This document shows, one piece after another, positions 2,844 through 26,192 of a stretch of 28,375 bases of DNA (position 1 is the stretch's first letter; each line of letters starts with the position of its first letter). Source of the DNA: a virus; the IMG/VR virus record IMGVR_UViG_3300033052_000050, positions 1-28,375 of that record. One strand, given 5' to 3'. The notes under the pieces were generated by a model that did not search any database, was not told the DNA's origin, and worked only from the letters and a program-made list of their open reading frames with translations. The translations under genes and the position numbers were made by a program.

Positions 2844-2851
2844 ATAATTGA

Positions 2852-2881
2852 TTGACGGCAGTGTTACAGACAGGATATATT
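2852..2881 (+). promoter_or_regulatory. Predicted late promoter (pR'-like)
   Basis: TTGACG (2852-2857, 5/6 to the -35 consensus), an 18-bp spacer, then TATATT (2876-2881, 5/6 to the -10 consensus). Transcription would start near 2888, just after the regulator gene ends at 2843 and upstream of all packaging, head, tail and lysis genes. It is the best promoter match I found in the window. Confidence 0.65.
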
Positions 2882-2909
2882 TCTCCCATCATCGCAGTAA
2901 TTGCATCCA

Positions 2910-2933
2910 AAGCCCGCTCATGCGGGCTTTTTG
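2910..2933 (+). terminator. Intrinsic terminator just downstream of the late promoter
   Basis: Perfect 8-bp stem AAGCCCGC / GCGGGCTT (2910-2917 and 2922-2929) with a TCAT loop, running into a T tract. A transcript from the promoter at 2852-2881 would be only about 45 nt long if it stopped here. This resembles the leader terminators at which Q proteins act. Confidence 0.8.
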
Positions 2934-2984
2934 CATTTCTGCCGTGCTGATGTGCCTGCGGTGTTCCTGTGATCCTGGAGGCGT

Positions 2985-3140: not shown

Positions 3141-3510
3141 TCCGGCCGTTGCCTAAGCACGGCGGCGTTGGGCGATAACGATAAGCGCACGAATTCTTAA
3201 CGGCGAAAGGTGGTGATCAATCTCGATCCGCAGGATAGCGGGGGATACACACACGATTCGTTATTGCCCGGGCAGCCGGGCTTTCTTCTACAGCACTAAT
3301 GGTAGTGGTTTGGCCGCTCAAGCTCAAGCGAGCACAGGACGGAGAATCGTCGCCGGTTGTGGGTGCATTGGTTGGGTAGGCCGCCAGCGTGCCTCTAGTG
3401 GCGAGTAACAGGCGCAGTCATCGACGAACAAAGGCCGTCTCCTATGCAGCGCTTTCCAGGCGCGGGCGATGACAACCGACGTTGTGCAGACGTCTACACA
3501 AAGGATTGAT
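3141..3510. other. Non-coding leader between small basic ORF and HNH gene
   Basis: No convincing gene here. It holds a GCCCGG/CCGGGC hairpin with a GCAG loop (3266-3281) followed by TTTCTTC, a weak terminator candidate, and a small CACTA/TAGTG hairpin (3292-3305). A near-perfect 20-bp palindrome centred on AGACGTCT (3482-3501) lies directly before the HNH ribosome binding site. Two tiny overlapping frames (3210-3299 and 3299-3379) are not supported. Confidence 0.5.
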
Positions 3511-3870
3511 ATGCCACGAGCCGCACCGCGCCCATGCTCACTGCGAGGTTGCACTGCGCTGGTGAAGGACGGTAGCGGCCGGTGCGAGAAGCATCCGCGT
3601 GAACCGTGGGTCAAGACGACCCCAACGAAGCGCATCACCGGGCGCCGCCTGCAGGCCATGCGCGCCAATCTGTTCTCGCGCCACCCGCTGTGCGTGATCT
3701 GCCTAGTCAATGACCGCGTCAGCGTGGCGACGCAGCGAGACCACATCAAGCCGCTTGCCGAAGGCGGCGCTGATGACGAGACCAACGAGCAGGCATTGTG
3801 TGAGCCCTGCCACGACGCGAAGAGCGAGAAGGAAGCCCAGCGCGGACGGCAACGTGCGCGGCGGGGGTAG
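3511..3870 (+). CDS. HNH homing-type endonuclease, packaging-associated
   Basis: 119 residues from ATG 3511, preceded by AAAGGA 5 nt upstream. An in-frame ATG at 3469 has no comparable site. The C-terminal half carries the HNH fold: a CxxC pair in LCVICL, then the DH of RDHIKPLAEGG, the Asn of ETNEQALC, a second CxxC and the final His in CEPCHDAKS. The zinc-binding cysteines and the H-N-H residues are all present, so the nuclease should be active. In cos-packaging phages an HNH protein encoded next to the terminase genes (as HK97 gp74) stimulates terminase cutting of concatemers. The terminase small subunit follows 128 bp downstream across a dyad-symmetric element, which supports the same role. 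Confidence 0.88.
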   Translation: MPRAAPRPCSLRGCTALVKDGSGRCEKHPREPWVKTTPTKRITGRRLQAMRANLFSRHPLCVICLVNDRVSVATQRDHIKPLAEGGADDETNEQALCEPCHDAKSEKEAQRGRQRARRG

Positions 3871-3998: not shown

Positions 3999-4484
3999 AT
4001 GGACCCAAAGAAAAGCTTTTCCGTTGCGCTGCCGGCAGTCGGCTCCGACAACGTCACGGCATCGGCGGGCGAGGTCACGTCGCCGCCGCCGCCGCCTGTC
4101 ATCGGACTGACCGGGGACGAGCTGCAAGTGTACGAATACATCTGCGCATCGCTGCGCGAAGCCGGCGTCGACCACCTCACTGCCGGCATGCCGCTGGCCG
4201 TGATAGTCCGCACCTTCATCGACTGGATCGCCGCCTCGAAGGAGTGCGCAGAGAAGGGCCGATCGCAGACCTCGAAAACTGGATGGAGCACCCCGACGCC
4301 CTGGGCCGATGACGAGAAGCGGCTCAAAATGGAACTTGGACAATGGCTACCGAAAGCATGCTTGACCATCCCGGCACTGGCCCGGGTACGAAAGGATACC
4401 GGAGTCCAGGGCGGCCAGGACGACCTGTTCAGCGCACTCGTAAACCACGGCACCAGCTCACCCGCAAACGGGTCGAAGCATTAA
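3999..4484 (+). CDS. terS: Terminase small subunit, P27-like
   Basis: 161 residues; ATG 3999 has GAAGGA 5 nt upstream. After a proline-rich linker (PPPPP near residue 30) the protein has the helical P27-family pattern, from LTGDELQVYEYI to WLPKACLTIPALARVR. The small subunit binds the packaging initiation site and recruits the large subunit. The gene's last 142 bases overlap the start of the large-subunit frame, an unusually long overlap. A candidate cos dyad lies 33 bp upstream of the start. Confidence 0.78.
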   Translation: MDPKKSFSVALPAVGSDNVTASAGEVTSPPPPPVIGLTGDELQVYEYICASLREAGVDHLTAGMPLAVIVRTFIDWIAASKECAEKGRSQTSKTGWSTPTPWADDEKRLKMELGQWLPKACLTIPALARVRKDTGVQGGQDDLFSALVNHGTSSPANGSKH

Positions 4485-6190
4485 AACCTGAAGTTCTGGA
4501 AGAGTGGGACGAGAAGTACGGCCTGCCGGTGCTGCGCGGTGAGATCACCGTAGGCAAGTACGTGTACCTGGCAGTCCAGCGGCATTACGTCGACCTGGTT
4601 AAGGCGCCGGCACGCGGCCTCGTATTCGAGCCGCGCTACAGCTGGCACATCATCGGGTACATCGAGAAGTTCTTCACGCACATCAAGGGACCACTGGCTG
4701 GCACGCCGATCCTGCTGGATCCTTGGCAGAAGTTCTGGACCGCAGTCTTGTATGGCTGGCGCCGTGCCAGTGATGGTGGCCGCCGCTTCAACCGCGCCTA
4801 TGAAGAGGTGGCGCGGAAGAACGGTAAGAGCACGTGGAAGGGACCGCAAGGCGCTTACCTGTTCTCGATGGACGGAGAGATCGGCGCCGAGGTCTACGCT
4901 GTCGCGACGACCCGCGCGCAGGCCATGACGGTCTTCAAGCCGGCATTCGACAACATCAAGCGCTGGGTGCGCCGGTCGCCTGGTGCGGCCCGCTCGTTCA
5001 AGATCCACAGCGGCTTGAACCAGGAACGCATCGAGCTCGACACCTCAGTGTTCGCACCGCTGCCGGCTAACGCCGAGAACCTGGACGGCTTGAACCCGTC
5101 CGCCATCCTGTTCGACGAGCTGCATGCGCAGCGCAACCGCGACGTCTGGGACGTGATGGAGACCGCGCTGGGCGCGCGCAAGCAGCCGCTGCTGTCGGCT
5201 ATTACGACATCCGGCTTCATCCTCGACGGCATCTGTACCGAGCTGCGCGAGTACCTGGTGTCCATCCTCGAAGGCAAGCGCGTCGACGACGACTTCTTCG
5301 GTTACATCTACACGCTCGATTCAGGCGACGATCCCTTCCTGGAAGCGAACTGGTACAAGTCCAACCCGGGCCTGGGCGGCTCAAAGACGCTTGCGTATAT
5401 GCGCGGCATGGCCCGGAAGGCAGCGGCACTGCCTGGCGCCCGTGCCAATTTCCTGACGAAGGATTTGAACATCTGGTGCAACACGGCCGACGGCTGGTTC
5501 GACCTGGCTGTGTGGGACAAGGGCGGTACGAAGTTCGATCCGGCGCTGCTCAAGGGCCGTCGCTGTTTCGGCGGGCTTGATCTGGCATCCACGCGTGACC
5601 TGACCGCATATGCGCTGGTCTTTCCTCCAACTGAGGATGACGACCAGTGGCGAGTCCTGGTGTGGTTCTGGTGCCCGCAGGAGAAGATCGATCAGGAAGA
5701 GCACGCTGACGCGGCACCATACAAGAAGTGGCAGGAGGCGGGCTGGCTCACGGCAACACCAGGCAACGTCACCGACTATGCGCCGGTGCGTAGGCAGATC
5801 CTGCAAAGCATGAAGGACTACGACGTTTGTCAGATCGGCTTCGACAAGTGGAACGCGCTGCAGCTGGCGAACGAGCTGCTCGAAGCGGATGTGCCGCTTG
5901 TCGAGGTGCCGCAGACTACCGGTGGCATGCACCCGGGCAGCCAGCTGCTTGAGAAGCTCGTGTATGGACTGCGGCTCAAGCATGGCGGCAATCCGGTGCT
6001 GCGCTGGTGCGCGAGCAACGTCGCTCTGCTGTTTGACACGAACGGCAACTACCGGCCTGACAAGAAACGATCCAAGGCGAACGGCCGCATCGACGGCATC
6101 GTGGCCACGATCATGGGTCTCAGCCGTGCTGCAGCGTTCGAGGACCAGGGCGACCTGGATGATGCAATCAACGACCCAATCCACACATGA
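4343..6190 (+). CDS. terL: Terminase large subunit (ATPase and nuclease)
   Basis: 615 residues from ATG 4343; ATG 4358 is equally possible, and no start codon occurs in this frame after the small-subunit stop before conserved sequence begins. ATPase motifs: variant Walker A ARKNGKST (residues ~157-164), Walker B AILFDE (~254-259), coupling motif ITTSG (~287-291). Nuclease motifs: GLDLASTRDLTA (~411-422) with the first catalytic Asp, a second acidic site around FDKWN, and the C-terminal DGIVATIMG. It is of the HK97-like Terminase_1 type, which cuts concatemers and drives DNA into proheads through the portal. Length is usual. The stop overlaps the portal start as ATGA, so the two are coupled. 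Confidence 0.95.
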   Translation: MATESMLDHPGTGPGTKGYRSPGRPGRPVQRTRKPRHQLTRKRVEALKPEVLEEWDEKYGLPVLRGEITVGKYVYLAVQRHYVDLVKAPARGLVFEPRYSWHIIGYIEKFFTHIKGPLAGTPILLDPWQKFWTAVLYGWRRASDGGRRFNRAYEEVARKNGKSTWKGPQGAYLFSMDGEIGAEVYAVATTRAQAMTVFKPAFDNIKRWVRRSPGAARSFKIHSGLNQERIELDTSVFAPLPANAENLDGLNPSAILFDELHAQRNRDVWDVMETALGARKQPLLSAITTSGFILDGICTELREYLVSILEGKRVDDDFFGYIYTLDSGDDPFLEANWYKSNPGLGGSKTLAYMRGMARKAAALPGARANFLTKDLNIWCNTADGWFDLAVWDKGGTKFDPALLKGRRCFGGLDLASTRDLTAYALVFPPTEDDDQWRVLVWFWCPQEKIDQEEHADAAPYKKWQEAGWLTATPGNVTDYAPVRRQILQSMKDYDVCQIGFDKWNALQLANELLEADVPLVEVPQTTGGMHPGSQLLEKLVYGLRLKHGGNPVLRWCASNVALLFDTNGNYRPDKKRSKANGRIDGIVATIMGLSRAAAFEDQGDLDDAINDPIHT

Positions 6191-7425
6191 ACATACTCAG
6201 CAATTTCCGGACGTGGTGGGGCGGCATCACCAGTTTTGGCGAAAGCGTCGGCACGCAGAATCGTCTGCCAGCTCAATCGCTGGTCGAGGAGACCAGCAGC
6301 GTTGGCGCCGACGCGGCTATGCAGATCAGCACTGTGTGGGCTTGCATCGACCGGCGCGCCGCGACCGTCGCCAGCCTGCCGTTCTTCGTGTACGAACAGA
6401 AAAACGGGCAGAAGCAGCTTGCTCGAATGAGCCGGCTGTACACGCTGCTTCACGACTCGCCCAACTCCAGGATGACGCCTTTTGAATTCTGGCGTGCGAT
6501 GGTGATGAACCATGATCTGCGTGGCGTGGCCTATGCGCGGATCGACCGGGACGACGACGGCGAAGCCATCGCGATGTGGCCCATGCCCACCGACCAGGTC
6601 GAGGCGCGCGTGCTCGAAGACGGTTCGATGGTGTACCTGTACCGGTTCAAGAACGATATCGCCGTCCTCAGCGAGGACAACGTCTACGTCTTGAAGAACC
6701 TCGGGAACGGGACAACCAGCTTCGATAAGCTGGAATTCATGCGAGCGGGGCTGGACGAGGTGGGCAAGGCGCAGGCCGAGGCAAGCCGCTTGTTCGGCGC
6801 CGCCGGCAAGCCGGCTGGCATTCTGATGGTCGACCGGCTGCTCAAGCCAGACCAGAAGGCCGCGATCAAACGCAACTTTGCCGAGATGGCCGAGGGCGGC
6901 ACGTCGCGCTTGCACGTGCTCGAAGCGGACATGAAATACCAGCAGCTCACGCTGACGCCCGAGCAGCAGCAGCTGCTGGAGACGCGCAAGTATGGCGTTG
7001 AAGAGCTATGCCGCTGGCACGACGTGCCGCCGGTGCTGGTCCACCATAGCAACGTGACCGCCTGGGGCTCTGGCATTGAGCAGCTGATTGCCGGCTTCTA
7101 CACGCTGGCCATCCGACCCCTGCTGGTGAACATCGAGCAGGGCATACGCAAACGTGTCATGACCTCTCGCCAGCGCGTGACGCTGGTGGCCGAGTTCAAC
7201 CTGGACGCCCTCCTGCGAGGCAACCTGAAGGACCGCATGGAGATCTACGCCAAGGCGGTGCAGAACGGCATCAAGAACCGCAACGAGTGCCGCCAGCTCG
7301 AGAACGATGCGCCGTATGAAGGCGGCGAAGTCTATACCGCCCAGTCGAACCTGGCGCCTGTGTCGATGCTTGGCGATCCCGCGCTTGCGCGAGCAAGTGC
7401 GGCAGCAACCCCTACCGCTCAGTAA
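6187..7425 (+). CDS. Portal protein, HK97 gp3-like
   Basis: 412 residues; ATG 6187 overlaps the terminase stop (ATGA). The N-terminus has the family pattern of an STVWACIDRRAATVASLPF block, followed by HDSPNSRMTPFEFWRAMV and NHDLRGVAYARI. The centre has GKPAGILM and the VPPVLVHHSNVTAWGSGIEQL region, characteristic of HK97-type portals. The protein forms the ring at one capsid vertex through which DNA enters and to which the neck binds. Size is typical for the family. The Ala/Thr-rich C-terminus is presumably disordered. It is followed directly by the protease gene. Confidence 0.93.
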   Translation: MNILSNFRTWWGGITSFGESVGTQNRLPAQSLVEETSSVGADAAMQISTVWACIDRRAATVASLPFFVYEQKNGQKQLARMSRLYTLLHDSPNSRMTPFEFWRAMVMNHDLRGVAYARIDRDDDGEAIAMWPMPTDQVEARVLEDGSMVYLYRFKNDIAVLSEDNVYVLKNLGNGTTSFDKLEFMRAGLDEVGKAQAEASRLFGAAGKPAGILMVDRLLKPDQKAAIKRNFAEMAEGGTSRLHVLEADMKYQQLTLTPEQQQLLETRKYGVEELCRWHDVPPVLVHHSNVTAWGSGIEQLIAGFYTLAIRPLLVNIEQGIRKRVMTSRQRVTLVAEFNLDALLRGNLKDRMEIYAKAVQNGIKNRNECRQLENDAPYEGGEVYTAQSNLAPVSMLGDPALARASAAATPTAQ

Positions 7426-7435
7426 AGGAAAAATC

Positions 7436-8110
7436 ATGCCAGTTAAAACCCTGTCGCTCGAGGCAGTACAGCTCAAGCTTGAGGACGAATCGGCCGGTTC
7501 CTTCGTTGGCTACGCGTCAACCTTCGGCAACGTGGACTCGTATGGAGACACGATTCTCAAGGGCGCATATAAAGGCACGCTCAAGCAGTACGGCCTGCCG
7601 AAAATGTTCTTCAACCACGACAAGTACGCGGTCCCGATCGGCAAGTGGACAAAGGCGGTTGAGGACGACTACGGGCTGTTGATGACGGGCGAGCTCACTC
7701 CCGGCAACGCAATGGCCGAGCAGGTGCGCGCAGCGCTCAAGCACGGCACCGTCGACGGGATCTCCATCGGCTACGTGCTCGCCAAGGATGACTACCAAGA
7801 GACAGATGTTGGGCGCACCATCAAGAAGGTCAGCCGGTTGATCGAGTCGTCGATCGTGACCTTTCCCGCTGATACGTTCGCCAAGGTCGACCTGGCCAGC
7901 GTCAAGAACTGCGCCGACGAAATCGATCAGGTCGAAACCATTCGAGATTTTGAAGTCCTCCTGCGGGATGTAGGCGGCTTCAGCAAGGCAGCGGCCCAGG
8001 CACTGACCGCTCGCGCCAAATCGTTGTTCGCCGCGCGGGATGCCGGCACGCTCGACCAGGTGAAGTTCTCTGAACAAGTGCTCGCTCGCCTGGAAAGGTT
8101 GGGCAAGTAG
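7436..8110 (+). CDS. Prohead maturation protease, HK97 gp4 family
   Basis: 224 residues from ATG 7436, with AAAGGA (7424-7429) 6 nt upstream. The frame extends upstream into the portal gene, but that part is out-of-frame portal sequence. Family landmarks: VGYASTFGNVD near residue 25, the catalytic His in FFNHDK (His61), Ser in DGISIGY (Ser110) and an acidic residue in LIESSIVTFPA (Glu137). These match the His-Ser-acid arrangement of herpesvirus-like U35 proteases. It digests the delta domain of the capsid protein inside the prohead. Residue roles are assigned by motif position. The gene is followed by an intrinsic terminator, then the capsid gene. Confidence 0.92.
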   Translation: MPVKTLSLEAVQLKLEDESAGSFVGYASTFGNVDSYGDTILKGAYKGTLKQYGLPKMFFNHDKYAVPIGKWTKAVEDDYGLLMTGELTPGNAMAEQVRAALKHGTVDGISIGYVLAKDDYQETDVGRTIKKVSRLIESSIVTFPADTFAKVDLASVKNCADEIDQVETIRDFEVLLRDVGGFSKAAAQALTARAKSLFAARDAGTLDQVKFSEQVLARLERLGK

Positions 8111-8131
8111 TCATCCAGTAGTGCAACCACC

Positions 8132-8156
8132 GCCGCCTCCAGGCGGCATTCTTTTT
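8132..8156 (+). terminator. Intrinsic terminator between protease and capsid genes
   Basis: Stem GCCGCC / GGCGGC (8132-8137 and 8142-8147), loop TCCA, then ATTCTTTTT. Only 10 bases separate the T tract from the capsid ATG, so no promoter fits between. Full-strength termination here would silence the capsid gene. Confidence 0.7.
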
Positions 8157-8166
8157 AAGGAACGAA

Positions 8167-9507
8167 ATGAACTTCAATAAAATGTTGGGTGGCCGCCCAG
8201 GACGTGCGGCCGTACTGCTGGGTTTGGCCGTGGCCAGCGTCTTTGCCTATGCCTGCGGCGTCGATGTTCTGCACCTGGCCCGCCAGCATCCGGACGTGAT
8301 CGGTGCGCTGTCGCTGATGGGCATGGCAGGCGAAATGGACGTCAAGATCATGGGCGCCCTGGACAACGTCGAGAAAAAGCTCGACGACATGTCGAAGAAA
8401 TCCGAGGAAGAGATCAAGAACCTCGGCAAGATCTCAACCGATACCAAGACCGCAATCGACAACCTGGGCGTTGAACAGCGGACGCTGGCCGATCGCCTGG
8501 TCAAGCTCGAGCAGCGTAGCTCGCAGCAGCAGGACGACACCACGCCGGCAATCGTTCTGCCGGGTCAGCTGTTCACCAAGAGCGCTGCCTACACGTCGTT
8601 CATGGAATCGGGCGCCAAGCAGAAGGTCTTCGGTGAGGTCGAAAGCAAGAATACCGTTACCAACGCGATCGCCAACACCTTCAGCGAGCGCCGTCCTGGC
8701 CTGGTCGAAGGTTCGTTCCGCGTGTTCACGCTCGAGCAGCTGCTGACCAAGATCCCAACGTCGGCCAGCTCGATCGAGTGGGTCCGCGAGAACGTGTTCA
8801 CCAATGCCGCGGGCGAAACCGCTGAAGGCACCGCGAAGCCGCAAAGCTCGATCACCTTCACTCCGGGCGCCATGCCGGTGTCGACGATCTCGCACTTCCT
8901 GAAGATCACGACGCAGATGGCGAAGGACAACGCGGCACTGGCTGCGTACATCAACCGCCGCATGATCTACGGCGTGGACCTGCGTGCCGAGACCCAGATC
9001 TTCGCTGGCAATGGCGTCGGCGCCAACATGTCGGGCCTCGCCCTGGCCGGGAACTTCACGCCGCACGGCTACACCGCCGCGCTGCTGGCTGCTGCTGACC
9101 TGGACAACAACCGCTTCGACCTGATCGGCAAGATGATCGGCGACTGCGCTGCGGCCGACTACCCAGCCGACGCCGTCGTCATGAACACGGTCGACTGGTG
9201 GATCCTTCGCCTGACTAAGGACGGCCAAGGCCGCTACATCCTGGGCGACCCGGGCTCTGCCGCGCCTCCGATCCTGTTCGGAGTGCCGGTCGTGGCCAGC
9301 AACTCGGTCCCGCAAAACAAGGTCTGGGTGGGCAGCTTGGCGCAAGCGGCAACGCTGCACGACCGCGAGACGGTGGGCATCGCCCTGTCGGACTCGGACG
9401 GTGACAATTTCCAGTCCGGCCTGATTACCATCCGTGCCGATCGCCGCCTGGCCCTCACCGTCGAGAAGCCGGCAGCAGCCCGCTACGGCGACCTCAAGCC
9501 TGCGTAA
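8167..9507 (+). CDS. Major capsid protein, HK97 fold, with hydrophobic N-terminal extension
   Basis: 446 residues from ATG 8167, which has AAGGA (8157-8161) 5 nt upstream. Residues ~13-30 are strongly hydrophobic (VLLGLAVASVFAYACG) and resemble a membrane or signal segment, which is unusual in a capsid protein. An internal ATG at 8335 (Met57) would remove it but has only a weak ribosome binding site. Residues ~63-118 are a charged coiled coil, the expected scaffolding delta domain removed by the protease. From about residue 125 the HK97 fold follows, with SIEWVREN, the YINRRMIYGVDLRAE helix, DWWILRLTKDGQGRYI and FGVPVVASNSVP. Fold assignment is firm; the start is the uncertain point. Confidence 0.93.
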   Translation: MNFNKMLGGRPGRAAVLLGLAVASVFAYACGVDVLHLARQHPDVIGALSLMGMAGEMDVKIMGALDNVEKKLDDMSKKSEEEIKNLGKISTDTKTAIDNLGVEQRTLADRLVKLEQRSSQQQDDTTPAIVLPGQLFTKSAAYTSFMESGAKQKVFGEVESKNTVTNAIANTFSERRPGLVEGSFRVFTLEQLLTKIPTSASSIEWVRENVFTNAAGETAEGTAKPQSSITFTPGAMPVSTISHFLKITTQMAKDNAALAAYINRRMIYGVDLRAETQIFAGNGVGANMSGLALAGNFTPHGYTAALLAAADLDNNRFDLIGKMIGDCAAADYPADAVVMNTVDWWILRLTKDGQGRYILGDPGSAAPPILFGVPVVASNSVPQNKVWVGSLAQAATLHDRETVGIALSDSDGDNFQSGLITIRADRRLALTVEKPAAARYGDLKPA

Positions 9508-9514
9508 TCAACCA

Positions 9515-9533
9515 GGGCCGCCTGCGGCGGCCC
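9515..9533 (+). other. GC hairpin after capsid gene
   Basis: Perfect 8-bp stem GGGCCGCC / GGCGGCCC with a TGC loop, 7 bp past the capsid stop and 16 bp before the next gene. It lacks a T tract (ATTCTGAAGG follows), so it is more likely a 3'-end mRNA stabiliser or pause than a terminator. Confidence 0.5.
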
Positions 9534-9549
9534 ATTCTGAAGGAATGCG

Positions 9550-9915
9550 ATGAAGCAGCTTCAAGTCAAAATCCTGTGCCAAGTGATCACGGCGCAGTAC
9601 GGCACGCTCAACACTGGCGCGATCATTCGCACGGACGAGACCTTCGCCAAGCACCTGGTCGACGACTGCGGCGCCGCTGAGTACGTCAAGCCTGTCGATG
9701 CCGGTACCGTTGCAGTCGAAGGAAGCAAGCCGCGGCAGCCACGCGCGACCAAGGCTCCTGCGCCCAAGCTGGCTGACAAGCCAGCCGAATCGGACGGTAC
9801 CCCTCAATCGCCCGCTGTGCAGACGTCTGCACATGAACCAATCGCTGACGGTGTGTCGGCGCCAAACCCCGTCACGGATCCAGGCGCAGTCACTAGCGCC
9901 GACCCGCTGGAGTAA
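9550..9915 (+). CDS. Head-region protein of unknown function, 121 aa
   Basis: ATG 9550 is preceded by GAAGGAATGCG. The first ~50 residues look ordered (VKILCQVITAQYG, then GAIIRTDETFAKHLVDDCGAAEYV) and resemble the small proteins often encoded between capsid and connector genes, in which a start-loop-Ala/Glu pattern precedes a tail. The rest is Pro/Ala/Ser/Thr-rich and probably disordered. No enzyme motif or membrane segment is visible. A perfect 18-bp palindrome lies within the coding sequence at 9816-9833. A minor head or decoration-related role is possible by position only. Confidence 0.6.
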   Translation: MKQLQVKILCQVITAQYGTLNTGAIIRTDETFAKHLVDDCGAAEYVKPVDAGTVAVEGSKPRQPRATKAPAPKLADKPAESDGTPQSPAVQTSAHEPIADGVSAPNPVTDPGAVTSADPLE

Positions 9916-10137
9916 CCTCCCTGCCGCTGGCCTCGCACCGGCGGCTCTGCCGGATATTGAAAGACGCCCTATGCCAGCGCTGCAAAGACCGGTAGCGCGG
10001 TTACGCTTCGCTACAGCTCGCAGTTCGAGTACGCGCACGCCGCAGGGCGCAGGCCATTCACCGCAGCGCGTCGAATTGCAGGCGCGTTCGGCACAGGTCG
10101 GTGGGTGCCGTCCGGTATCAACACGAAAGAACGTCCG
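9916..10137 (+). other. Gap with coding-like sequence but no start codon
   Basis: No supported gene. A CCGGC/GCCGG hairpin lies near 9938-9953. From 9961 to the connector start at 10138 the connector's own frame stays open, with codon usage like its neighbours (GC-rich third positions, Tyr/Phe/Trp present), but no ATG occurs; GTG 10105 is the only alternative start. An ATG at 9971 lies in a different frame and gives a 56-codon Arg/Ser-rich frame ending ATGA over the connector start. A frameshifted or decayed small gene is possible. Confidence 0.4.
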
Positions 10138-10713
10138 ATGAGCACCGAGAAAATTTCAGGACCGGTAGCCCCCGCCGTCTCGATGGCAAAGGCCAAGGAA
10201 GCGCTACGCTTTGAGGAGGGTGACTTGTCGCAGGACGGCTTGATCGCGATCTGGATCGCGGGTATCACGGCCGAGGCCGAGAACCAAACAGGGCGAGCCT
10301 TTGTTAACCGAGCCATGCGCACGACGCTCGGAGGCTTTCCCGACGCGATCAAGCTGAGCGCGCCTACCTTCAGCGTCGAGGCGGTACGCTTCGTGGCGCC
10401 CGACGGTAGCACCCATATCCTCGATCCCGCTGACTACTACGTGGACCGGGTGACCGTGCCTGGTTATATCGTGCCTGCTCGCGGCAAGGCTTGGCCAGCT
10501 ACCGATACCAGGGTCGATGCGGTGATGGTCGACTACACAGCGGGCTATGGCGTGTCCGACGTGGACGTTCCCAGTGAGGTCAAGATGTACATCCTGGCCA
10601 AGCTGCAAGTGCAGTTCGAAACCTCCGTAGGCGCCGGCTCACCGGTGGGCAAGCCTTTCAACGTGGCATATCTCGACCGGCTGCTCGATGGCCTTGTGGT
10701 GTACGACGTATGA
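10138..10713 (+). CDS. Head-tail connector, HK97 gp6-like
   Basis: 191 residues from ATG 10138; an in-frame GTG at 10105 would add 11. The pattern is that of the gp6/gp15-type adaptor: an N-terminal helical domain (KAKEALRFEEGD, LIAIWIAGITAEAENQTGRAFV), a beta section with DPADYYVDRV, WPATDTRVDAVMVDYTAGYG, then a C-terminal helix. The protein binds under the portal and opens the neck. It overlaps the next gene by ATGA, and the head-closure gene follows in the usual order. The upstream ribosome binding site is weak (GAAAGA about 12 nt away), so its expression may depend on whatever the preceding stretch is. Confidence 0.85.
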   Translation: MSTEKISGPVAPAVSMAKAKEALRFEEGDLSQDGLIAIWIAGITAEAENQTGRAFVNRAMRTTLGGFPDAIKLSAPTFSVEAVRFVAPDGSTHILDPADYYVDRVTVPGYIVPARGKAWPATDTRVDAVMVDYTAGYGVSDVDVPSEVKMYILAKLQVQFETSVGAGSPVGKPFNVAYLDRLLDGLVVYDV

Positions 10714-11048
10714 CGATCGCGAGCCGACTCAACAAACGCGTGTTGCTGCAGCAGCCGGTAGCAGGCAAGGATGCCTCTGGCGCACCAGCGCAGGTCTGGC
10801 AGAACGTCATCTCAACCGGCGACGGCAAATTGTGGGCCGGTGTCCGTGATCTGACGGGCCGCCAGTTTGTCGCCGCCGGTGGCACACAGAATGCCGTTCA
10901 GACCGAGATCGAGATCCGTTATCGGCCAGGTGTAGCCGCCAAGATGCGCGTAATCCATGGCGCCGACATCTACGACATCGAGGCAGTGCTCGACCAGAAG
11001 GGCAAGTCACTGTTGTTAATGTGCTCGAAAGGAGTCAGCCGTGGCTGA
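10710..11048 (+). CDS. Head closure protein (SPP1 gp16 / HK97 gp7 type)
   Basis: 112 residues; ATG 10710 overlaps the connector stop. The sequence has the small beta-barrel pattern of the family: IASRLNKRVLLQQPV at the start, KLWAGVRDLTGRQFVAAG, then EIRYRPGVAAKMRVIHGADIYDIEAVLD. Proteins of this group sit below the connector and close the filled head before tail joining. Size and gene order fit. The stop overlaps the next gene's GTG start by 8 bases. Confidence 0.85.
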   Translation: MTIASRLNKRVLLQQPVAGKDASGAPAQVWQNVISTGDGKLWAGVRDLTGRQFVAAGGTQNAVQTEIEIRYRPGVAAKMRVIHGADIYDIEAVLDQKGKSLLLMCSKGVSRG

Positions 11049-11493
11049 TAGCAAGAACCTGACCGGCTTCCGGGAGCTGGCGAAAGCGCTGAAGGAGTTG
11101 GGCCCGCGTGTCGGCCGCAAGCATTTGCGCGGATCCACGTCTAAGGGCGCTGCGGTCATCCGAAAGAAGGCACGGGAGCTCGCTCCGGTTGATACGGGCG
11201 AGATGCGCAAGGATATCCAGATCAAGCGCGAGAAGACCTCGGGCGATCACGTTGCCAGCTACTCGGTCTACACTCGCAGTGGTAAACGTTCTCGACTTTC
11301 AGGCAAAGCGCGCAACGTCGACAAGGACAGCTTCTACTGGAAGTTCATCGAGTTCGGCACGGCCAAGATGGCGGCTCAGCCCTTTCTGCGGCCCGCATTC
11401 GAGTCTGAAAAGGAGGCTGCTGTCGACGCGATCGGCGCTGAGCTGGACAGGCGCATCCAGAAGGAAGCTGCAGATCTGGCAAGGGGTGGGTGA
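11041..11493 (+). CDS. Tail completion / neck protein, HK97 gp10-like
   Basis: 150 residues from GTG 11041, chosen because AAAGGAG (11028-11034) lies 6 nt upstream. The N-terminus has the helical GFRELAKALKELGPRVG motif of HK97-gp10-like proteins, then APVDTGEMRKDIQIKR, a basic stretch, and WKFIEFGTAKMAAQPFLRPA, the signature C-terminal region. Family members join head and tail. The stop TGA 11491-11493 overlaps the following ATG by one base. Confidence 0.88.
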   Translation: MADSKNLTGFRELAKALKELGPRVGRKHLRGSTSKGAAVIRKKARELAPVDTGEMRKDIQIKREKTSGDHVASYSVYTRSGKRSRLSGKARNVDKDSFYWKFIEFGTAKMAAQPFLRPAFESEKEAAVDAIGAELDRRIQKEAADLARGG

Positions 11494-11843
11494 TGGACAT
11501 ACTCGCTGCATTTCTCGCTCTGGTCGACCCGATCATGGGTGGCCAGGCGTATCGCAATGTCATCCCAGAAGGGATTCCACCGCCCTACGCCAAGTTCTTT
11601 CGCGTCTCGGCAATCGAAGGCCTGACGTTAGACGAGAACGGTGGTGATGGGAACGAGACCACCACCCGGATCCAACTGGATATTTACGGCAGTTCGCCAG
11701 ATGTCGAAGTGAAGACTAGGGCCGTAAAGGCGTCGCTCAAGGCCTGGTCAGTCGACAACGTCGTTTTGCTCGAGCTCGACGGTTTTGAGGCGGAAGTGAA
11801 GCTGCATCGCACGACGCTGGACATCTCAACCATCCATCAGTAG
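11493..11843 (+). CDS. Tail terminator-like protein (DUF3168)
   Basis: 116 residues from ATG 11493. GTG 11490 is also in frame but would leave only 3 nt to the AAGGGG ribosome binding site (11481-11486), whereas the ATG has 6. The sequence (PIMGGQAYRNVIPEG, then PPYAKFFRV, TTTRIQLDIYG, VKTRAVKASLKAW) matches the DUF3168 gpU-like fold, which caps the tail tube and joins it to the neck. It is the last gene before a strong terminator and the tail tube gene. Confidence 0.8.
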   Translation: MDILAAFLALVDPIMGGQAYRNVIPEGIPPPYAKFFRVSAIEGLTLDENGGDGNETTTRIQLDIYGSSPDVEVKTRAVKASLKAWSVDNVVLLELDGFEAEVKLHRTTLDISTIHQ

Positions 11844-11865
11844 ACCCGTTAAACCTTTCACGCCC

Positions 11866-11887
11866 GCCCGCGATTGCGGGCTTTTTT
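11866..11887 (+). terminator. Intrinsic terminator before tail tube gene
   Basis: Stem GCCCGC / GCGGGC (11866-11871 and 11876-11881) with a GATT loop followed by six T. The tail tube ATG is 18 bp further on and only its ribosome binding site fits between, so transcription must read through. Confidence 0.85.
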
Positions 11888-11905
11888 ACTTCCAAGAGGA
11901 TCAAC

Positions 11906-12538
11906 ATGTCCGGAATCTCCGCGCAAAAAAGCAAGCTGCACATCGCCACCGGTACCGGCGGCGCCAAAACCATCACCGACATCACCGTCGGCTTCCCGGC
12001 GATCGTGACCAGCAACGCCCATGGCCTGAACAATGGTGACGTCGTCACCCTGGCGGGCATCGTCGGCAGTATGTCGTCGCTCAACGGAAGCAAGCGAGTT
12101 GTAGCGAACCGCACTGCCGACACCTTCGCGCTGCTGGACGTCGACACCACCGGCCTGGTCTACACCTCGGACGGCACCGCGACGCCGGAGGCCTACACCA
12201 AGATCAATGGCCTGCTGTCCTTCGATGGCTTCGACGGCGCGGCGGACGAGCTCGACACCACTGATCTCGATTCGGATGCGAAGGAGTTCGTGTCTGGCAT
12301 CAAGGACGAGGGTAAGTTCGGCTTCGAGATCAAGACGGTGAAAGCCGACAACGGGCAGATCGCACTGCGTGCTGCGCGCGTCAGCGGCAATATCACGGGC
12401 TTCAAGCTCGAGCTGCCCGATGGCAGCGTCGCGTCGTTCAGCGCCTTGGTGAAGACCATCCCGACGAGCGGCGGCGTGAATGCCGTCATGAAGGGCAAGG
12501 TCGACTGCAAGATTTCCGGCCCGGTAACTTGGGCATAA
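11906..12538 (+). CDS. Major tail tube protein with inserted FCCH-like domain
   Basis: 210 residues; ATG 11906 follows AAGAGGATCAAC. The N-terminal tube start (SAQKSKLHIATG) is interrupted at residues ~22-95 by a segment with the pattern of the ubiquitin-activating E1 FCCH-like domain (VTSNAHGLNNGDVVTLAG, GSKRVVANRTADTFALL, TTGLVYTSDGT), a small beta domain often grafted onto phage tail and capsid proteins. The tube fold then resumes with FDGFDGAADELDTTDLDSDAKEF and ends with KGKVDCKISGPVTW. It forms the hexameric tail tube; the insert would decorate its surface. The tube function is secure from sequence and gene order; the domain name is by pattern. Confidence 0.87.
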   Translation: MSGISAQKSKLHIATGTGGAKTITDITVGFPAIVTSNAHGLNNGDVVTLAGIVGSMSSLNGSKRVVANRTADTFALLDVDTTGLVYTSDGTATPEAYTKINGLLSFDGFDGAADELDTTDLDSDAKEFVSGIKDEGKFGFEIKTVKADNGQIALRAARVSGNITGFKLELPDGSVASFSALVKTIPTSGGVNAVMKGKVDCKISGPVTWA

Positions 12539-12547
12539 GGAGGCGCC

Positions 12548-12958
12548 ATGAAACTACTCAACAAAGCAGCAATCCTCGGGGCCAACGACCTGAAGCACGA
12601 AGATGTGCCGGTCCCTCAATGGGGCGGCATGGTGCGCGTGCGCATGATGACCGGCGCCGATCGCGATGAGTTTCGTCAGATGGCAGCGGAGTACGAGGAC
12701 GGCATCCCGCCGGCGCGATTCGCCGCCATCCTGCTGATGCTGACCTGCGTCGACGAGACCGGCGCCCGCGTGTTCACACTCGATGACATTGCAGCCCTGG
12801 AAGGCAAAAGCGCTGGTTCCGTCGACATCCCGGCCGCCGTCGCCATGCGCCTCAACGGCTTCGGCGCCCAAGCTGTGGCGGACGCGGAAAAAAACTCCGC
12901 GAGCGGCCGGAGCGAAGATTCTGGTTCCGCCTCGCCCTCGCCCTCGGAAAAACAGTAG
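12548..12958 (+). CDS. Tail assembly chaperone (gpG-like)
   Basis: 136 residues; ATG 12548 with AAGGAGG (12537-12543). Typical chaperone pattern: N-terminal KLLNKAAILGANDLKHEDV, VRVRMMTGADRDEFRQM, AILLMLTCVDETG, IAALEGKSAGSVD, then a low-complexity Ser-rich end. It coats the tape measure protein during tail assembly. A slippery heptamer at codons 115-116 allows a share of ribosomes to shift -1 and extend into the T frame. It ends TAG 12956-12958. Confidence 0.85.
   Translation: MKLLNKAAILGANDLKHEDVPVPQWGGMVRVRMMTGADRDEFRQMAAEYEDGIPPARFAAILLMLTCVDETGARVFTLDDIAALEGKSAGSVDIPAAVAMRLNGFGAQAVADAEKNSASGRSEDSGSASPSPSEKQ
12889..12895 (+). promoter_or_regulatory. Programmed -1 ribosomal frameshift site A AAA AAC
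   Basis: The seven bases match the canonical X XXY YYZ slippery heptamer, exactly in phase with the gpG frame (AAA 12890-12892, AAC 12893-12895). The -1 frame is open from 12895 to the TAG at 13261-13263. The position near the end of gpG is where lambda G/GT and most siphovirus chaperone pairs shift. Confidence 0.85.
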
Positions 12959-13263
12959 GGCAGCTGCAGGCCGAGATGACATCGGCCGAGTTCACCGAAT
13001 GGATGGCCTACTACGAGCTTGAGCCGTTCGGTGAGCTGGTGGCCGATCAGCGGCATGGTGTGGCAACCGCGCTGCAGGCGAACCTGAACCGGGATCCGAA
13101 GACCCACCCGAACCCGTACAAGCCAGAGGATTTCATCCACTGGCGCGACACGGGCGAGGCCGAAGAAGATGCTGAGCCAGAGCTGCTGGACGATGACGTG
13201 GCGCAGTCGAATCTGATCCGGGCGTCGGTCTTCGGGTTGCCGCCAAGAAAAGCTGTGGCATAG
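12895..13263 (+). CDS. T extension of tail assembly chaperone, made as G-T frameshift fusion
   Basis: 122 residues read in the -1 frame after the shift, giving a fusion of about 238 residues starting at 12548. The extension contains FWFRLALALGKTVGQLQAEM, then MTSAEFTEWMAYYELEPFGEL and PNPYKPEDFI, the recognisable gpT-like segment. Because conserved gpT sequence starts upstream of the first ATG in this frame (12976), the fusion rather than an independent start is the likely product. GT links the tape measure protein to tail tube subunits during assembly. Confidence 0.83.
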   Translation, partial: LRERPERRFWFRLALALGKTVGQLQAEMTSAEFTEWMAYYELEPFGELVADQRHGVATALQANLNRDPKTHPNPYKPEDFIHWRDTGEAEEDAEPELLDDDVAQSNLIRASVFGLPPRKAVA

Positions 13264-13264
13264 T
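13237..13264 (+). promoter_or_regulatory. Possible weak promoter before secreted cargo gene
   Basis: TTGCCG (13237-13242), 16-bp spacer, CATAGT (13259-13264), each 4/6 to consensus, at the end of the T frame and about 30 bp before the next ATG. The match is weak. It is listed because the gene downstream has its own terminator, as independent prophage cargo genes usually do. Confidence 0.25.
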
Positions 13265-13293
13265 AAACCCATCAATAACACGATGGGGATGCT

Positions 13294-13626
13294 ATGAAAG
13301 CACTTTTGGCCGCGGTCCTGGCGCTGGCAACTCTGCCGGTTCTTGCGAACGACGCCAACGCGATCGAGGCGGGAAAGAGACTGGCGAAGCGCGATTTCCG
13401 TGAGTTGCAGGATCCGCAGTTTCGCAGCCTGAAACTGCGCTATTCGATTGATGGGAAAGCAGTTCTACTGTGCGGTGAAATTAGCGGCAGAAATAGGCCG
13501 GAGTTCACCAAATTCTGGGTTTGGCTGGAGCCCAAGGCAGGGGATCTGGATAATAGGCGCCCGCCTGACTTTCCGGAGAAAATCTGGGATGAGCTTGTGG
13601 ACGCAATCTGCGCACCAGGCCCATGA
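13294..13626 (+). CDS. Secreted small protein, prophage cargo (moron) inside tail operon
   Basis: 110 residues; ATG 13294 with GGGGA 5 nt upstream. The N-terminus is a clear signal peptide (Lys2, hydrophobic core LLAAVLALATLPV, cleavage likely after LPVLA at residue 18). The mature part has a helical ELQDPQFRSLKLRY section and a CGEISGRNRPEF section. Its two cysteines, Cys60 and Cys106, could form a disulphide in the periplasm. The pattern resembles small periplasmic proteins of unknown function common in bacteria. It interrupts the conserved chaperone to tape-measure order and is followed by its own terminator, both signs of an inserted cargo gene. A role in the lysogen's envelope or in superinfection exclusion is possible but unproven. 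Confidence 0.75.
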   Translation: MKALLAAVLALATLPVLANDANAIEAGKRLAKRDFRELQDPQFRSLKLRYSIDGKAVLLCGEISGRNRPEFTKFWVWLEPKAGDLDNRRPPDFPEKIWDELVDAICAPGP

Positions 13627-13643
13627 AATCCTGAAGCATCATA

Positions 13644-13669
13644 GACCCGCCCAAGTGGCGGGTCTTTTC
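13644..13669 (+). terminator. Intrinsic terminator after secreted cargo gene
   Basis: Perfect 8-bp stem GACCCGCC / GGCGGGTC (13644-13651 and 13657-13664) with a CAAGT loop and a T-rich tail. The tape measure ATG is only about 15 bp beyond, so the tail transcript must pass through it. Confidence 0.85.
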
Positions 13670-13683
13670 ATTTTGGAGCCGGC

Positions 13684-16161
13684 ATGGCAAATTTGGGTCA
13701 ACTGGTCGTCAATCTTGAGGCGAATATCGCCCGGTTTACGAGTGATATGGGGAGGGCGTCGCAGGCTACCGAGCAAGCGATGACCCGTATCAATGGCGCG
13801 GTCGACACGGTGAAGAACGGCCTCGCCGCTCTCGGTATCGGCGCCTCTGTTGGTGGTTTCGCTATGATCATCAAGGGTGCCGTCGACGCTGCGGACAATC
13901 TGCGCGACATGTCACAGAAGACTGGTCTAGCGGTCGAAGAGCTCAACGGGCTAGGGTTTGCATCGGGCCAGGCCGGCGGCAGCTTGGAAGCCATGGGCGC
14001 CGCAGCCGGCAAGCTGAACAAGGCGCTGACTGAATCTGCTGGCGGGAATGGAGAAGCGGCAGAGGCGTTCAAAGCTTTGGGCATTTCGGTCAAGGACGCC
14101 GAAGGCAATCTTAAGAAGGCCGACGTCGTGATGGCCGAGGTGGCGGACCAGTTCGCCAAGTACCAGGACGGCCCGGAGAAAGCGGCAATCGCGCTGCGTT
14201 TGTTTGGCAAAGCCGGCGCGGACATGATCCCGCTGTTGAACGACGGCGGCGACGCGATGCGCGAAAACATCGAGTACGCCAAGCGATACAGCTTTGCCAC
14301 GACAGACCTGTCTAACGCAGCCGACAACTTCAACGACACGATGGGTAAGCTGGCGATCCAGCAGCAAGGGTTCATCAATCAGTTGTCGGCCGAAATGCTG
14401 CCCGTCATGCAAAGTGTGGCCAATGCCTTCCTTGAGACCTCGGAGAGGGCGAACGATCTGCATTCGTGGAGCGGAAAATTGTCGGGGGCGCTCACCGGCC
14501 TAACCGGTGTCGCTGTTACCGGCGCATTTGTGTTCGAGCAATGGGGGATCAAAGTAGGCGCAGCGGCCGCCAAGGCTGAGGCCCTGAAGAATCTGGACTT
14601 CAAAGCCTTCCGGCAGATCAGCGAGCAGGAAGATAGCGATCTGGCCGAGTCGCGAGGCGACTACCAAGTGCTGCGGGGCGAGATTCGTAGCGGTGGCGCC
14701 AAGGACCGCTTTGCACCGGTGATCGCGGGCGTCGAGAAGATGATGTCGGAGGAGCGCGAGATCCTGGCCGCCCGGAGCGCGATGCTGAATAAGTATCAGA
14801 GCGATGGCCTGATGTCGCAAAAGGCGGCCAACGAAGCGAGGGTCGCTGCCCAAGCTGAGTATGTCAAGAACATGAAGGACATGTATGGCTATGAGATAGC
14901 AATCCTCATGGGCGCCAAAAAGGTAGCGGAAGATAATGAGCGCAATCCGGTAAAAGCAAAGGAAATTCAGGGTCGAATCGACGGCTTGTACCGCGAGCAA
15001 TCGCTCGTCGGCACTGATAGGCCAGCAGCGCCGAAGCTGCCCGAGACGAAGAAGCCGGAGCTGAAGAAAACTGATGCTGAACGGGCGAGCGAGGAAACGC
15101 AAAAGCTGATTGCTCAGCAGAGGGAGCAGATCGACACCTTTGGCCTCAGCGGCGCCGCAGTCCTGGAATACCAGCTCAACCTGAAACCGATCTCGGCAGA
15201 GCTTGCAAATATTGCGGTGGCGAACCAGCAGGTCATCGACAAGATGAAGGCGACCGAAGCGGCCGAGAAGGAGGCGGCCGCGGCCCGGAAGAAAGCGCAG
15301 GACGATGCCGCCAGGGCCCAGGAGCAGAACGCGGCGAACGTCGAGCAGATCCGGCAGTCGCTCCTGACCGATGTGCAGCATGAGCAATTCGTTCACGAGG
15401 CCCGGCTGCAGCAGATCCGCACGTTCGGCGAAGCAAAGCTTGAGAACGTCGTGCAAGCCAATGCACTGATCGAGGCCGAAACTGCGCGCCATCAGGCCGT
15501 GCTAGAGGAAATGGACCGGCAGCGGGCAGAGCAGAAGATTGGGCTTGAGATGCAGGTACTTCAGCAAGCTGGTGGCGTCGCCGACCAGATGTACTCGATG
15601 CTCAGGCAAGCCGGCATGGAGCAGAGCGCACTTGCCAAGGCCGCCTTCCTGGCCAGCAAGGCCATCGCTGTGGCCCAGATCATTATGCAGACGAACGTCG
15701 CGGCTGCTTCCGCACTGGCGCTTCCTCCGATTGGCCTCGGTCCTGTGGCAGGTCTGGGGCTGGCAGGGACGATCAAGGCGCTCGGCTATTCGAGCGCAGC
15801 GATGACCGCGGGCCTGGCGATCGCGGAAGCCTCGGCCGAGGGCGGCTACGACATCCCAGCCGGCGTCAATCCGATGACCCAGCTGCACGAGAAAGAAATG
15901 GTGTTACCGAAGGCTCAGGCTGACGTGATTCGCGGCCTGGCAACGCGCGGCGGCGCCGGCGACGGCGGAGCGATGAAGCTGACCATCGTGAACAACACCA
16001 GGTCGCCAATCGGCCGGGTGACAGAGCAGCGGATTTCTGCCACCGAGCGCGCGCTGATCATCGAGGAGGCGAAGGCGGCGACGATCGCCTCATTCTATGA
16101 GCCCAACAGCAAAGGAAGCAGGTCTTTGCAGGACAATTTCGGCGTGCAAAGACGGCGCTGA
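13684..16161 (+). CDS. Tail tape measure protein
   Basis: 825 residues; ATG 13684 with GGAG 6 nt upstream. The N-terminal section LGQLVVNLEANIARFTSDMG and following helices with the hydrophobic AALGIGASVGGFAMII segment are typical of tape measure proteins. The middle (residues ~430-650) is long charged coiled coil. The C-terminal third has a hydrophobic stretch (KAIAVAQIIMQTNVAAASALA) and ends with the EGGYDIPAGVNPMTQLHEKE and VLPKAQADVI motifs seen in many siphovirus tapes. Its length fixes tail length, roughly 120 nm by the usual 0.15 nm per residue. It follows the chaperones in conserved order. Confidence 0.93.
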   Translation: MANLGQLVVNLEANIARFTSDMGRASQATEQAMTRINGAVDTVKNGLAALGIGASVGGFAMIIKGAVDAADNLRDMSQKTGLAVEELNGLGFASGQAGGSLEAMGAAAGKLNKALTESAGGNGEAAEAFKALGISVKDAEGNLKKADVVMAEVADQFAKYQDGPEKAAIALRLFGKAGADMIPLLNDGGDAMRENIEYAKRYSFATTDLSNAADNFNDTMGKLAIQQQGFINQLSAEMLPVMQSVANAFLETSERANDLHSWSGKLSGALTGLTGVAVTGAFVFEQWGIKVGAAAAKAEALKNLDFKAFRQISEQEDSDLAESRGDYQVLRGEIRSGGAKDRFAPVIAGVEKMMSEEREILAARSAMLNKYQSDGLMSQKAANEARVAAQAEYVKNMKDMYGYEIAILMGAKKVAEDNERNPVKAKEIQGRIDGLYREQSLVGTDRPAAPKLPETKKPELKKTDAERASEETQKLIAQQREQIDTFGLSGAAVLEYQLNLKPISAELANIAVANQQVIDKMKATEAAEKEAAAARKKAQDDAARAQEQNAANVEQIRQSLLTDVQHEQFVHEARLQQIRTFGEAKLENVVQANALIEAETARHQAVLEEMDRQRAEQKIGLEMQVLQQAGGVADQMYSMLRQAGMEQSALAKAAFLASKAIAVAQIIMQTNVAAASALALPPIGLGPVAGLGLAGTIKALGYSSAAMTAGLAIAEASAEGGYDIPAGVNPMTQLHEKEMVLPKAQADVIRGLATRGGAGDGGAMKLTIVNNTRSPIGRVTEQRISATERALIIEEAKAATIASFYEPNSKGSRSLQDNFGVQRRR

Positions 16162-16180
16162 TCGATCGAGCAATAGGGTT

Positions 16181-16393
16181 TCAGGTTGGATGGTGGATGA
16201 CAGGGACATTTGCCTTGGCCAAGGCGAGCGCCGTGCCTTCGATTTCTCGAATTGAACAGTGGGGCGTCGCTGGAAGCGCGAACTGGAAATGAAAACTAGT
16301 GTACTGCCCGTTCGGAGCCTGCTCTGAAGCGTTCCCATGAATCATATAGAAGGCCTCGTCCAAATGAATGCTGTCAATGCTGTAAGTGATCAC
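16181..16393 (-). CDS. Antisense small gene inside tail cluster, 70 aa
   Basis: On the minus strand, GTG at 16391-16393 is preceded by GAAAGGA with a 5-nt spacer, an excellent ribosome binding site. The frame runs 70 codons to TGA at 16181-16183. The product (ITYSIDSIHLDEAFYMIHGN, then TSFHFQFALPATPHCSIREI) is compositionally ordinary and soluble. It fills the otherwise empty 285 bp between tape measure and the next tail gene, where the plus strand has no gene. Opposite orientation and low GC suggest a late-acquired cargo gene transcribed from its own promoter in the lysogen. I do not recognise a family. Confidence 0.6.
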   Translation of the reverse strand: MITYSIDSIHLDEAFYMIHGNASEQAPNGQYTSFHFQFALPATPHCSIREIEGTALALAKANVPVIHHPT

Positions 16394-16446
16394 GCTAATC
16401 CTTTCAATGTAAAGACTCAAAACGATACCAGAAGTCGAGGGTTGCA

Positions 16447-16938
16447 ATGACGAATCCTGTAATGCCAAATGGCTTCACGCCGACTGTGGCCGCTTACTCG
16501 ATGGACGACCCTGGCGGCGTGCTGCGCACGGAAGTCGCCGGCGGCGCCGCTCGGTACGGACTCGATTGGGACCGTGGGCTGCAGCGCTTCCAGGTGACGC
16601 TGATCCTCGATGCGCTCAAGTTCTCGGTGTGGACGGCCTTCTACCACCACATCATCAAGAAGGGCGCCATCACATTCGACATGCGGCTCGATTCCGGCTT
16701 CGGCCCGGAGCCGCACCCGGTGAACATCATGCCCGGGTCGTACTCGGCGGCGCGCACCGGTGGGATTGCAACGGTGGTGTCGTTCGTCGTGGAAGCCGAA
16801 AGTAAGGTGTACGAGATGACCGCGGCAGACGCTGTAGGGATGGTCGAGGTATATAACGCCTATGGCACCAACGCGCCGGCGCTGCTGCAGCGCCTGGCTC
16901 GGTTCGCGACGGTCGACACCAACGTCCTGGAGTTCTGA
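16447..16938 (+). CDS. Minor tail protein, 163 aa
   Basis: ATG 16447 with GAGGG 5 nt upstream. The sequence (GFTPTVAAYSMDDPGGVLRTEVAGG, in two parts; RFQVTLILDALKFSVWTAFYHH; GAITFDMRLDSGFGPEPHPVNI) is a beta-rich protein of the kind that follows the tape measure gene in betaproteobacterial lambdoid phages, in the slot of the distal tail / lambda gpM-type proteins. No enzyme motif is visible. Tail-tip structural role is inferred from gene order; exact family not recognised. Its stop overlaps the next start. Confidence 0.72.
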   Translation: MTNPVMPNGFTPTVAAYSMDDPGGVLRTEVAGGAARYGLDWDRGLQRFQVTLILDALKFSVWTAFYHHIIKKGAITFDMRLDSGFGPEPHPVNIMPGSYSAARTGGIATVVSFVVEAESKVYEMTAADAVGMVEVYNAYGTNAPALLQRLARFATVDTNVLEF

Positions 16939-17444
16939 TGAGCCTCGACCTCGAAAGCCGGTTGCAGACGTTTCTGGCATCCGCACCGCAAGCAATCTGG
17001 CCGATCCAGACACTGCAGATCAGCCATTCGGCTATGAGCAAAACCTACCATCTTTGGCGCGAGCCGCACGCTGGCCAGACCGTTGTCGACGCCATCGCGG
17101 TCGATATGCAGCCGTGCAACATCGAGATCAAGCTGGCCGGCAGCGAAGGTCACCTTGACCAGAAGTTCGACATCCGGATCGGGCTGGTCGACATCGAGGA
17201 CGAATTCCGCGAGCAGCTGGACCGGATTCCTGTTGGCACGACGGAGAAGATCAGGGTCGTGTACCGCGAGTACCTGAGCGACGACCTGACAGCGCCGCAG
17301 GCCACTGCAGTGCTGCAGGCCGAAAGCATCACCTACGCAATCGGCGCGGCCAGCATCAGCGCCGTGTCGCCGCGGCTGAACATGACGCGCACCGGCGAGC
17401 TGTACACCCCCAAAGAAATACCCATGCTGAGAGGATTTCTCTGA
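16938..17444 (+). CDS. DUF1833-type minor tail protein
   Basis: 168 residues from ATG 16938, overlapping the preceding stop (TGATG). The pattern IWPIQTLQISHSAMSKTYHL followed by VDMQPCNIEIKLAGSEGHLD and FDIRIGLVDIEDEFREQLD resembles DUF1833, a beta-sandwich protein at the lambda gpL position. In that position the protein joins the tail tip hub to the peptidase and TipJ proteins. Ends TGATG over the next gene. Confidence 0.75.
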   Translation: MSLDLESRLQTFLASAPQAIWPIQTLQISHSAMSKTYHLWREPHAGQTVVDAIAVDMQPCNIEIKLAGSEGHLDQKFDIRIGLVDIEDEFREQLDRIPVGTTEKIRVVYREYLSDDLTAPQATAVLQAESITYAIGAASISAVSPRLNMTRTGELYTPKEIPMLRGFL

Positions 17445-20388: not shown

Positions 20389-20397
20389 GGCGACGAT

Positions 20398-20874: not shown

Positions 20875-20891
20875 ATAGCAGTATCGATCAG

Positions 20892-20916: not shown

Positions 20917-20938
20917 CGTCCAACGATAGGGAATTTAA

Positions 20939-22496: not shown

Positions 22497-22507
22497 ACGA
22501 GCCATCC

Positions 22508-26186: not shown

Positions 26187-26192
26187 TCCACG

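Follow-up and report, generated by a model that had tools for sequence, protein, structure and literature searches.

A predicted AlpA-family antiterminator gene and its putative loading site at the early-late junction of a phage genome

The window analysed here, that is, the whole stretch of 28,375 nt from the virus record IMGVR_UViG_3300033052_000050, carries on its + strand a gene (2151-2843) which very probably codes for a Q-type processive antiterminator of the AlpA family, with the segment behind it, 2852-2932, as the loading site of this factor. The assignment draws on the homology between the predicted protein and AlpA of Pseudomonas aeruginosa, on the conserved architecture of the module, on a fixed distance between a putative binding element and a pause hexamer, and on the co-variation of this element with the helix-turn-helix (HTH) of the protein. 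The P. aeruginosa AlpA in question (alpRABCDE) is unrelated to the AlpA excision regulator of CP4-57. A previous sequence-only reading had described this place as a late control module of the Q type. Every part of that description which can be tested on the sequence is supported: promoter and early terminator abut the gene, many phages keep this arrangement, and packaging and structural genes are located downstream.

The predicted protein of 230 aa consists of an N-terminal part, predicted to bind RNA polymerase, with the conserved motif IFxxxxQAxHVxF, and a C-terminal HTH at residues ~178-202. It had been noted before that it shows no obvious match to the Q proteins of lambda, 21 or 82 and may belong to a separate Q family. 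Indeed, for lambda Q, 21Q and 82Q it matches none of the searched models (Pfam, NCBIfam, PHROGs); Pfam and NCBIfam gave no significant match to it, and the sole PHROG match was phrog_17923, annotated as 'unknown function'. When the single sequence was searched against the PDB, AlpA appeared at a non-significant E=0.071, with both ends of the protein matching in the same order. A profile built from five relatives found AlpA at E=1.6e-8, a profile from 46 relatives found it (7xya/7xyb) at E=2.7e-9, and hhalign against seven AlpA sequences gave a probability of 97.2% with E=3.4e-11, aligning residues 13-221 to AlpA 1-174 and thereby nearly the full length; E-values from such small alignments are approximate. 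The AlphaFold model has a mean pLDDT of 79. In a fold search against 350,542 PDB chains it yielded E<0.001 only for the two AlpA-RNA polymerase structures 7xya/7xyb, which are the AlpA-loaded and the AlpA-loading complex (TM 0.69-0.76 on the target). The model thus has the AlpA fold, with low confidence (pLDDT about 54-61) at residues 31-70, the N-terminal region that would form the ring in the RNA exit channel.

In AlpA, R128 contacts the DNA, as do S139 and H142, and E53 contacts the RNA polymerase dock (PMC9371919). R128 aligns with R182 of the window protein, an arginine in 51/52 family members, and E53 aligns with E79, which is E or D in 52/52. AlpA R34 is not conserved in the phage family (M46 in the window protein). 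Judged by profiles, fold model and these conserved residues, the 2151-2843 protein is a homologue of P. aeruginosa AlpA. The suggestion of a separate Q family was thus right in substance, with homology to AlpA in place of a match to a Q family, and the profile search and structure prediction that had been proposed as a check returned AlpA and no known Q family. The C-terminus had also been called sigma-region-4-like. The Pfam model Sigma70_r4 does not detect this in the window protein; in two relatives, L099 and L004, the HTH scores above the curated cut-off of Sigma70_r4_2, and so it appears to be only the HTH that the family has in common with region 4 of Sigma-70. The earlier impression can be explained by such family members.

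The phage protein is longer than AlpA (230 versus 176 aa), and about half of the family carries in addition, behind the N-terminal part and ahead of the HTH, an Ala/Arg-rich, apparently coiled-coil insert of ~100 residues (for instance, L003, 4992-5963, as well as L048, L051 and L055). With AlpA as query no match was found in the phage collection.

Directly 3' of the gene, whose stop codon TAA is at 2841-2843, a promoter begins 9 bp past the last base. Its -35 element TTGACG (2852-2857), identical to that of PalpB in P. aeruginosa, is separated by an 18 bp spacer (2858-2875, GCAGTGTTACAGACAGGA) from the -10 element TATATT (2876-2881), all on the + strand and at the coordinates claimed before. 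Transcription would start at the A at 2888, as judged from the position of the -10 element and from the register with PalpB. It is followed on the same strand by an intrinsic terminator at 2909-2932 with 9 perfect pairs (2909-2917/2922-2930), a 4-nt loop and a T-run at 2928-2932. The perfect terminator had been placed at 2910-2933; the perfect stem and T-run are there, one base further upstream. If transcription starts at 2888, termination at this hairpin would give an RNA of ~45 nt, in agreement with the length proposed earlier, and the RNA 2888-2940 folds with z = -4.55 against shuffles. The promoter match alone is within chance (1 found versus 2.3 +/- 1.5 expected in 8-kb shuffles) and was dropped as evidence by itself. 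The pair of promoter and terminator, unlike the promoter by itself, is above chance: the + strand has a single 10/12 promoter located 15-65 nt before a strong terminator, and 0/60 Markov resamples have one.

Within the spacer lies a putative protein-binding element, TGTTACAG (2862-2869, + strand), which is kept in relatives at a fixed distance and co-varies with the HTH. Its core GTTACA (2863-2868) is at -25 to -20. A -10-like hexamer, CATCAT (2887-2892, + strand, -1 to +5), would serve as a sigma-dependent pause signal, and the conserved initially transcribed stretch behind it (2894-2905, + strand) points to a pause near +16/+17. Among 54 distinct modules with an 18-bp spacer, A at +1 occurs in 50 and T at +5 in 51, followed by G+7 in 52, T+15 in 50, G+16 in 49 and Y+17 in all 54. 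CATCAT agrees with TATAAT at 4/6 positions, and CATTCT, the commonest hexamer of the family, agrees with it at only 3. The AlpA system has its element GGGACG likewise at -25 to -20 and the -10-like hexamer CACGAT at -1 to +5 (PMC9371919). In the P. aeruginosa locus that we fetched, TTGACG-ACATGGGACGATAAAGG-TATAAA-TTCTCC-ACGAT is found right behind alpA.

The distance between element and hexamer is 24 nt in 69/72 distinct modules, three Pseudomonas PalpB included. Over the same 72 modules the distance from the -35 to the element varies between 9 and 14 and that from the -10 to the hexamer is 11 or 12; where the latter is 12, the element is 12 and not 13 from the -10, so that the shifts compensate. 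In loading complexes of known structure, sigma region 2 on the -10-like hexamer places the binding element beside the RNA exit channel (PMC6606751), and a fixed distance of 24 nt is, by this analogy, what the published complexes predict. At lambda pR' the polymerase pauses at 16-17, and sigma-dependent pauses of E. coli at +16 to +20 have been reported with a -10-like element 11 bp past the -10 and a 6-nt spacer to the start (PMC7876045). By comparison, the arrangement in the window is the same as reported for those E. coli pauses.

A conserved element between -35 and -10 is also where ordinary regulators bind, and in some family members the HTH resembles sigma region 4. The protein could hence be an AlpA-like DNA-binding regulator that activates or represses initiation at this promoter, in which case the terminator would be incidental. 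We consider this unlikely. The promoter is near consensus already, the start-proximal terminator recurs among relatives, and the transcribed region up to ~+18 is as conserved as the promoter, for which a simple regulator has no need. Nor would such a regulator need an element that is in register with the -10-like hexamer and not with -35 and -10. Furthermore, the nearest characterised homologue is an antiterminator (PMC7969949, PMC9371919).

Protein and element co-vary. Among 73 distinct protein-module pairs, most have A or C at -22. When mutual information with this base was calculated for 217 protein positions, the top four were 181, 196, 200 and 193, all of them within the HTH, and 0/400 tree-based null simulations attained the observed maximum over the helix. 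HTH columns were excluded from the tree behind the null model, in which the simulated labels changed a similar number of times. Two of the four positions, 193 and 196, correspond in the alignment to the DNA-contacting residues S139 and H142 of AlpA. As the positions were in part, namely 181 and 200, picked by the scan and near-duplicates remain among the pairs, the strength of this signal is approximate. The window and L002 combine GTTACA with M193 and F196, the close relative L005 combines GTTCCA with T193 and L196.

We compared 82 loci, consisting of 80 viral loci, the window and Burkholderia phage BgManors32, with a few near-duplicates among them. The module is at or near the end of the gene in 65/82 and in several more it is displaced by an intervening gene or insert. 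Among the genome loci, 14/18 have the module; these are Burkholderiales and belong to Massilia, Duganella, Janthinobacterium, Pseudoduganella, Rugamonas, Trinickia, Burkholderia and one unclassified Burkholderiales bin. A position weight matrix from relatives, trained with the window and its closest kin excluded, scored the window site at 69.6 bits and the next best place in the window at -10.5; with -35 and -10 masked the values were 45.0 versus -0.2. TerL or HNH genes are located downstream on the same strand in 52/65 loci. The module was not recognisable in the fetched downstream sequence of about nine Burkholderia-type loci (L032-L034, L037, L039, L042, L045-L047). A DNA search of the phage collection with the module returned terminator-like fragments only, and a search of the window and four related loci against Rfam yielded no RNA family.

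A hairpin behind the last early gene, together with a promoter match that alone is within chance, could also mean that the terminator only closes the early operon and that the promoter upstream of it is accidental. This has next to no probability: promoter, spacer element and pause hexamer are kept together in fixed geometry over dozens of diverged loci, and the module persists even where it is displaced from the gene, as in L036, L043, L062 and L079. By sequence comparison, conservation refutes the chance match. In L079 (4612-5970) ~1.3 kb lie between the antiterminator gene and the intact module, as if an insertion had parted them.

A terminator was detected at +11 to +80 in 33/65 modules versus 1% of random sites, by a scan that overlooks hairpins with long loops. 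In many relatives a similar hairpin begins at +20 to +24, and some loci have their first recognisable terminator only >100 nt downstream. These numbers also bear on the idea that the promoter makes a ~45-nt regulatory RNA, which the terminator merely ends, while the late genes are driven from elsewhere. Promoter and terminator would yield such a short RNA, comparable to the 6S RNA of lambda. However, the same RNA is expected under antitermination, so that the two readings are not exclusive; the least variable part is the start-proximal pause-like region, whereas position and sequence of the terminator vary among relatives, and nothing else in the window looks like the module. An RNA-only role therefore appears very improbable, and we keep to the antiterminator with its loading site.

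The module is located exactly at the junction of early and late genes, since a phage primase-helicase (DUF5906) and a small conserved ORF lie upstream, and HNH, TerS and TerL genes, followed by structural and lysis genes, lie downstream. The first late genes on the + strand, identified by Pfam and PHROGs, code for an HNH endonuclease (3469-3870), TerS (3999-4484) and TerL (4343-6190); the rest of the late region (6187-23904, + strand) contains portal, major head protein, tape measure, tail protein, endolysin and an Rz-like spanin. This is the layout of Q-type late control: the gene stands last in the early region, and behind it come the late promoter, the terminator and the late genes. Three further strong terminators are found on the + strand before the endolysin gene (13643-13664, 20890-20908 and 22474-22490), so that four terminators in all would stand between a start at 2888 and the lysis genes.

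Taking start site, pausing, binding, exit-channel mechanism and antitermination from the biochemistry of AlpA and Q (PMC7969949, PMC9371919, PMC6606751), we propose the following mechanism. In absence of the protein, RNA polymerase would start at ~2888 and stop at the 2909-2932 terminator, releasing the ~45-nt RNA. Once the early operon supplies the protein, its C-terminal HTH would bind TGTTACAG between -35 and -10, while sigma re-binds the -10-like hexamer at -1 to +5 and holds the polymerase at ~+16/+17. The N-terminal part would then enter the RNA exit channel and block hairpin formation. The polymerase could thus pass the first terminator and the three more ahead of the lysis genes, and packaging, head, tail and lysis genes would be expressed.

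Like the phage system, alpA is directly followed by its target promoter and terminator (PalpB), and both have the element at -25 to -20, the hexamer at -1 to +5, 24 nt between them and a TTGACG -35 in common. They differ in the element, GTTACA/GTTCCA in phages versus GGGACG, with matching changes in the recognition helix of the phage proteins. AlpA governs a chromosomal self-lysis operon, whereas the phage protein is predicted to control packaging, head, tail and lysis genes. By sequence, the Q proteins of phages fall into three families, 21Q, lambda Q and 82Q (PMC9371919). These, too, are found between early and late genes and have a binding site inside the late promoter (putative here), a -10-like sequence in the initially transcribed region and a downstream terminator (PMC6606751, PMC9371919), but the window protein shows no detectable sequence match to the Q family models. 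21Q binds two direct-repeat subsites with two protomers, whereas here, as for AlpA, a single 6-bp element is conserved. In the gene transfer agents of Caulobacter and Rhodobacter, GafZ/GafA is an antiterminator with a proposed element between -35 and -10 at the promoter of the structural-gene cluster (PMC11150451); GafZ acts together with GafY, IHF and Nus factors.

The AlpA papers that were found describe no antiterminator related by sequence and suggest that the alp system originated from a prophage (PMC7969949). In the literature searched, with its incomplete coverage, we found no paper on phage late control by AlpA relatives. Because of this and the missing Q-family match, we count a phage Q family homologous to AlpA as new, Q-type late switches and antitermination by AlpA being known. 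It seems likely to us that this is a fourth phage Q family, widespread in phages of Burkholderiales, in which helix and promoter element co-evolve, that AlpA and its promoter are a domesticated phage late switch, and that the 24 nt represent a loading rule. A phage protein family that is annotated as unknown and has no Pfam or NCBIfam entry would thereby gain a predicted function, and the three known Q families would be joined by a fourth sequence family. Homologous sequences in phages support the published suggestion of a prophage origin for the alp self-lysis system (PMC7969949). The many natural pairs of protein and element may be read as a specificity code, and the fixed spacing of 24 nt makes the loading geometry of Q-type factors testable.

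Several further features of the window deserve mention. The small ORF directly 5' of the antiterminator gene (1874-2149, about 80-90 aa) is kept in relatives (L001 4741-5001, L003 4709-4948) and has no Pfam, PHROG or NCBIfam match; its product may be a partner of the switch. Another noncoding block of strong conservation is located at 3200-3296, behind the late terminator and ahead of the first late gene. It reads CGAAAGGTGGTGATCC..TCTCGATCCGC..AGCGGGGGATACA, followed by a terminator, and is found in most relatives (for instance, L003 6147-6240, L010 4917-5010). Its CCGC/GCGG hairpin is invariant, there is little covariation and no match in Rfam; the block is present in 34 viral DNA stretches. 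With this little covariation and its location well downstream it was left aside as part of the switch; a cos site, a late-leader RNA or a protein site are possible. No tRNA was found within the window. Past the late operon, the minus-strand ORFs at 25755-28313 have no PHROG match and may be host DNA at the end of a prophage. Finally, two paralogous tail-protein-like genes, 20939-22381 and 24196-25641 (480 and 481 aa), are located on either side of the lysis cassette, and the PHROG matches of both are tail proteins.
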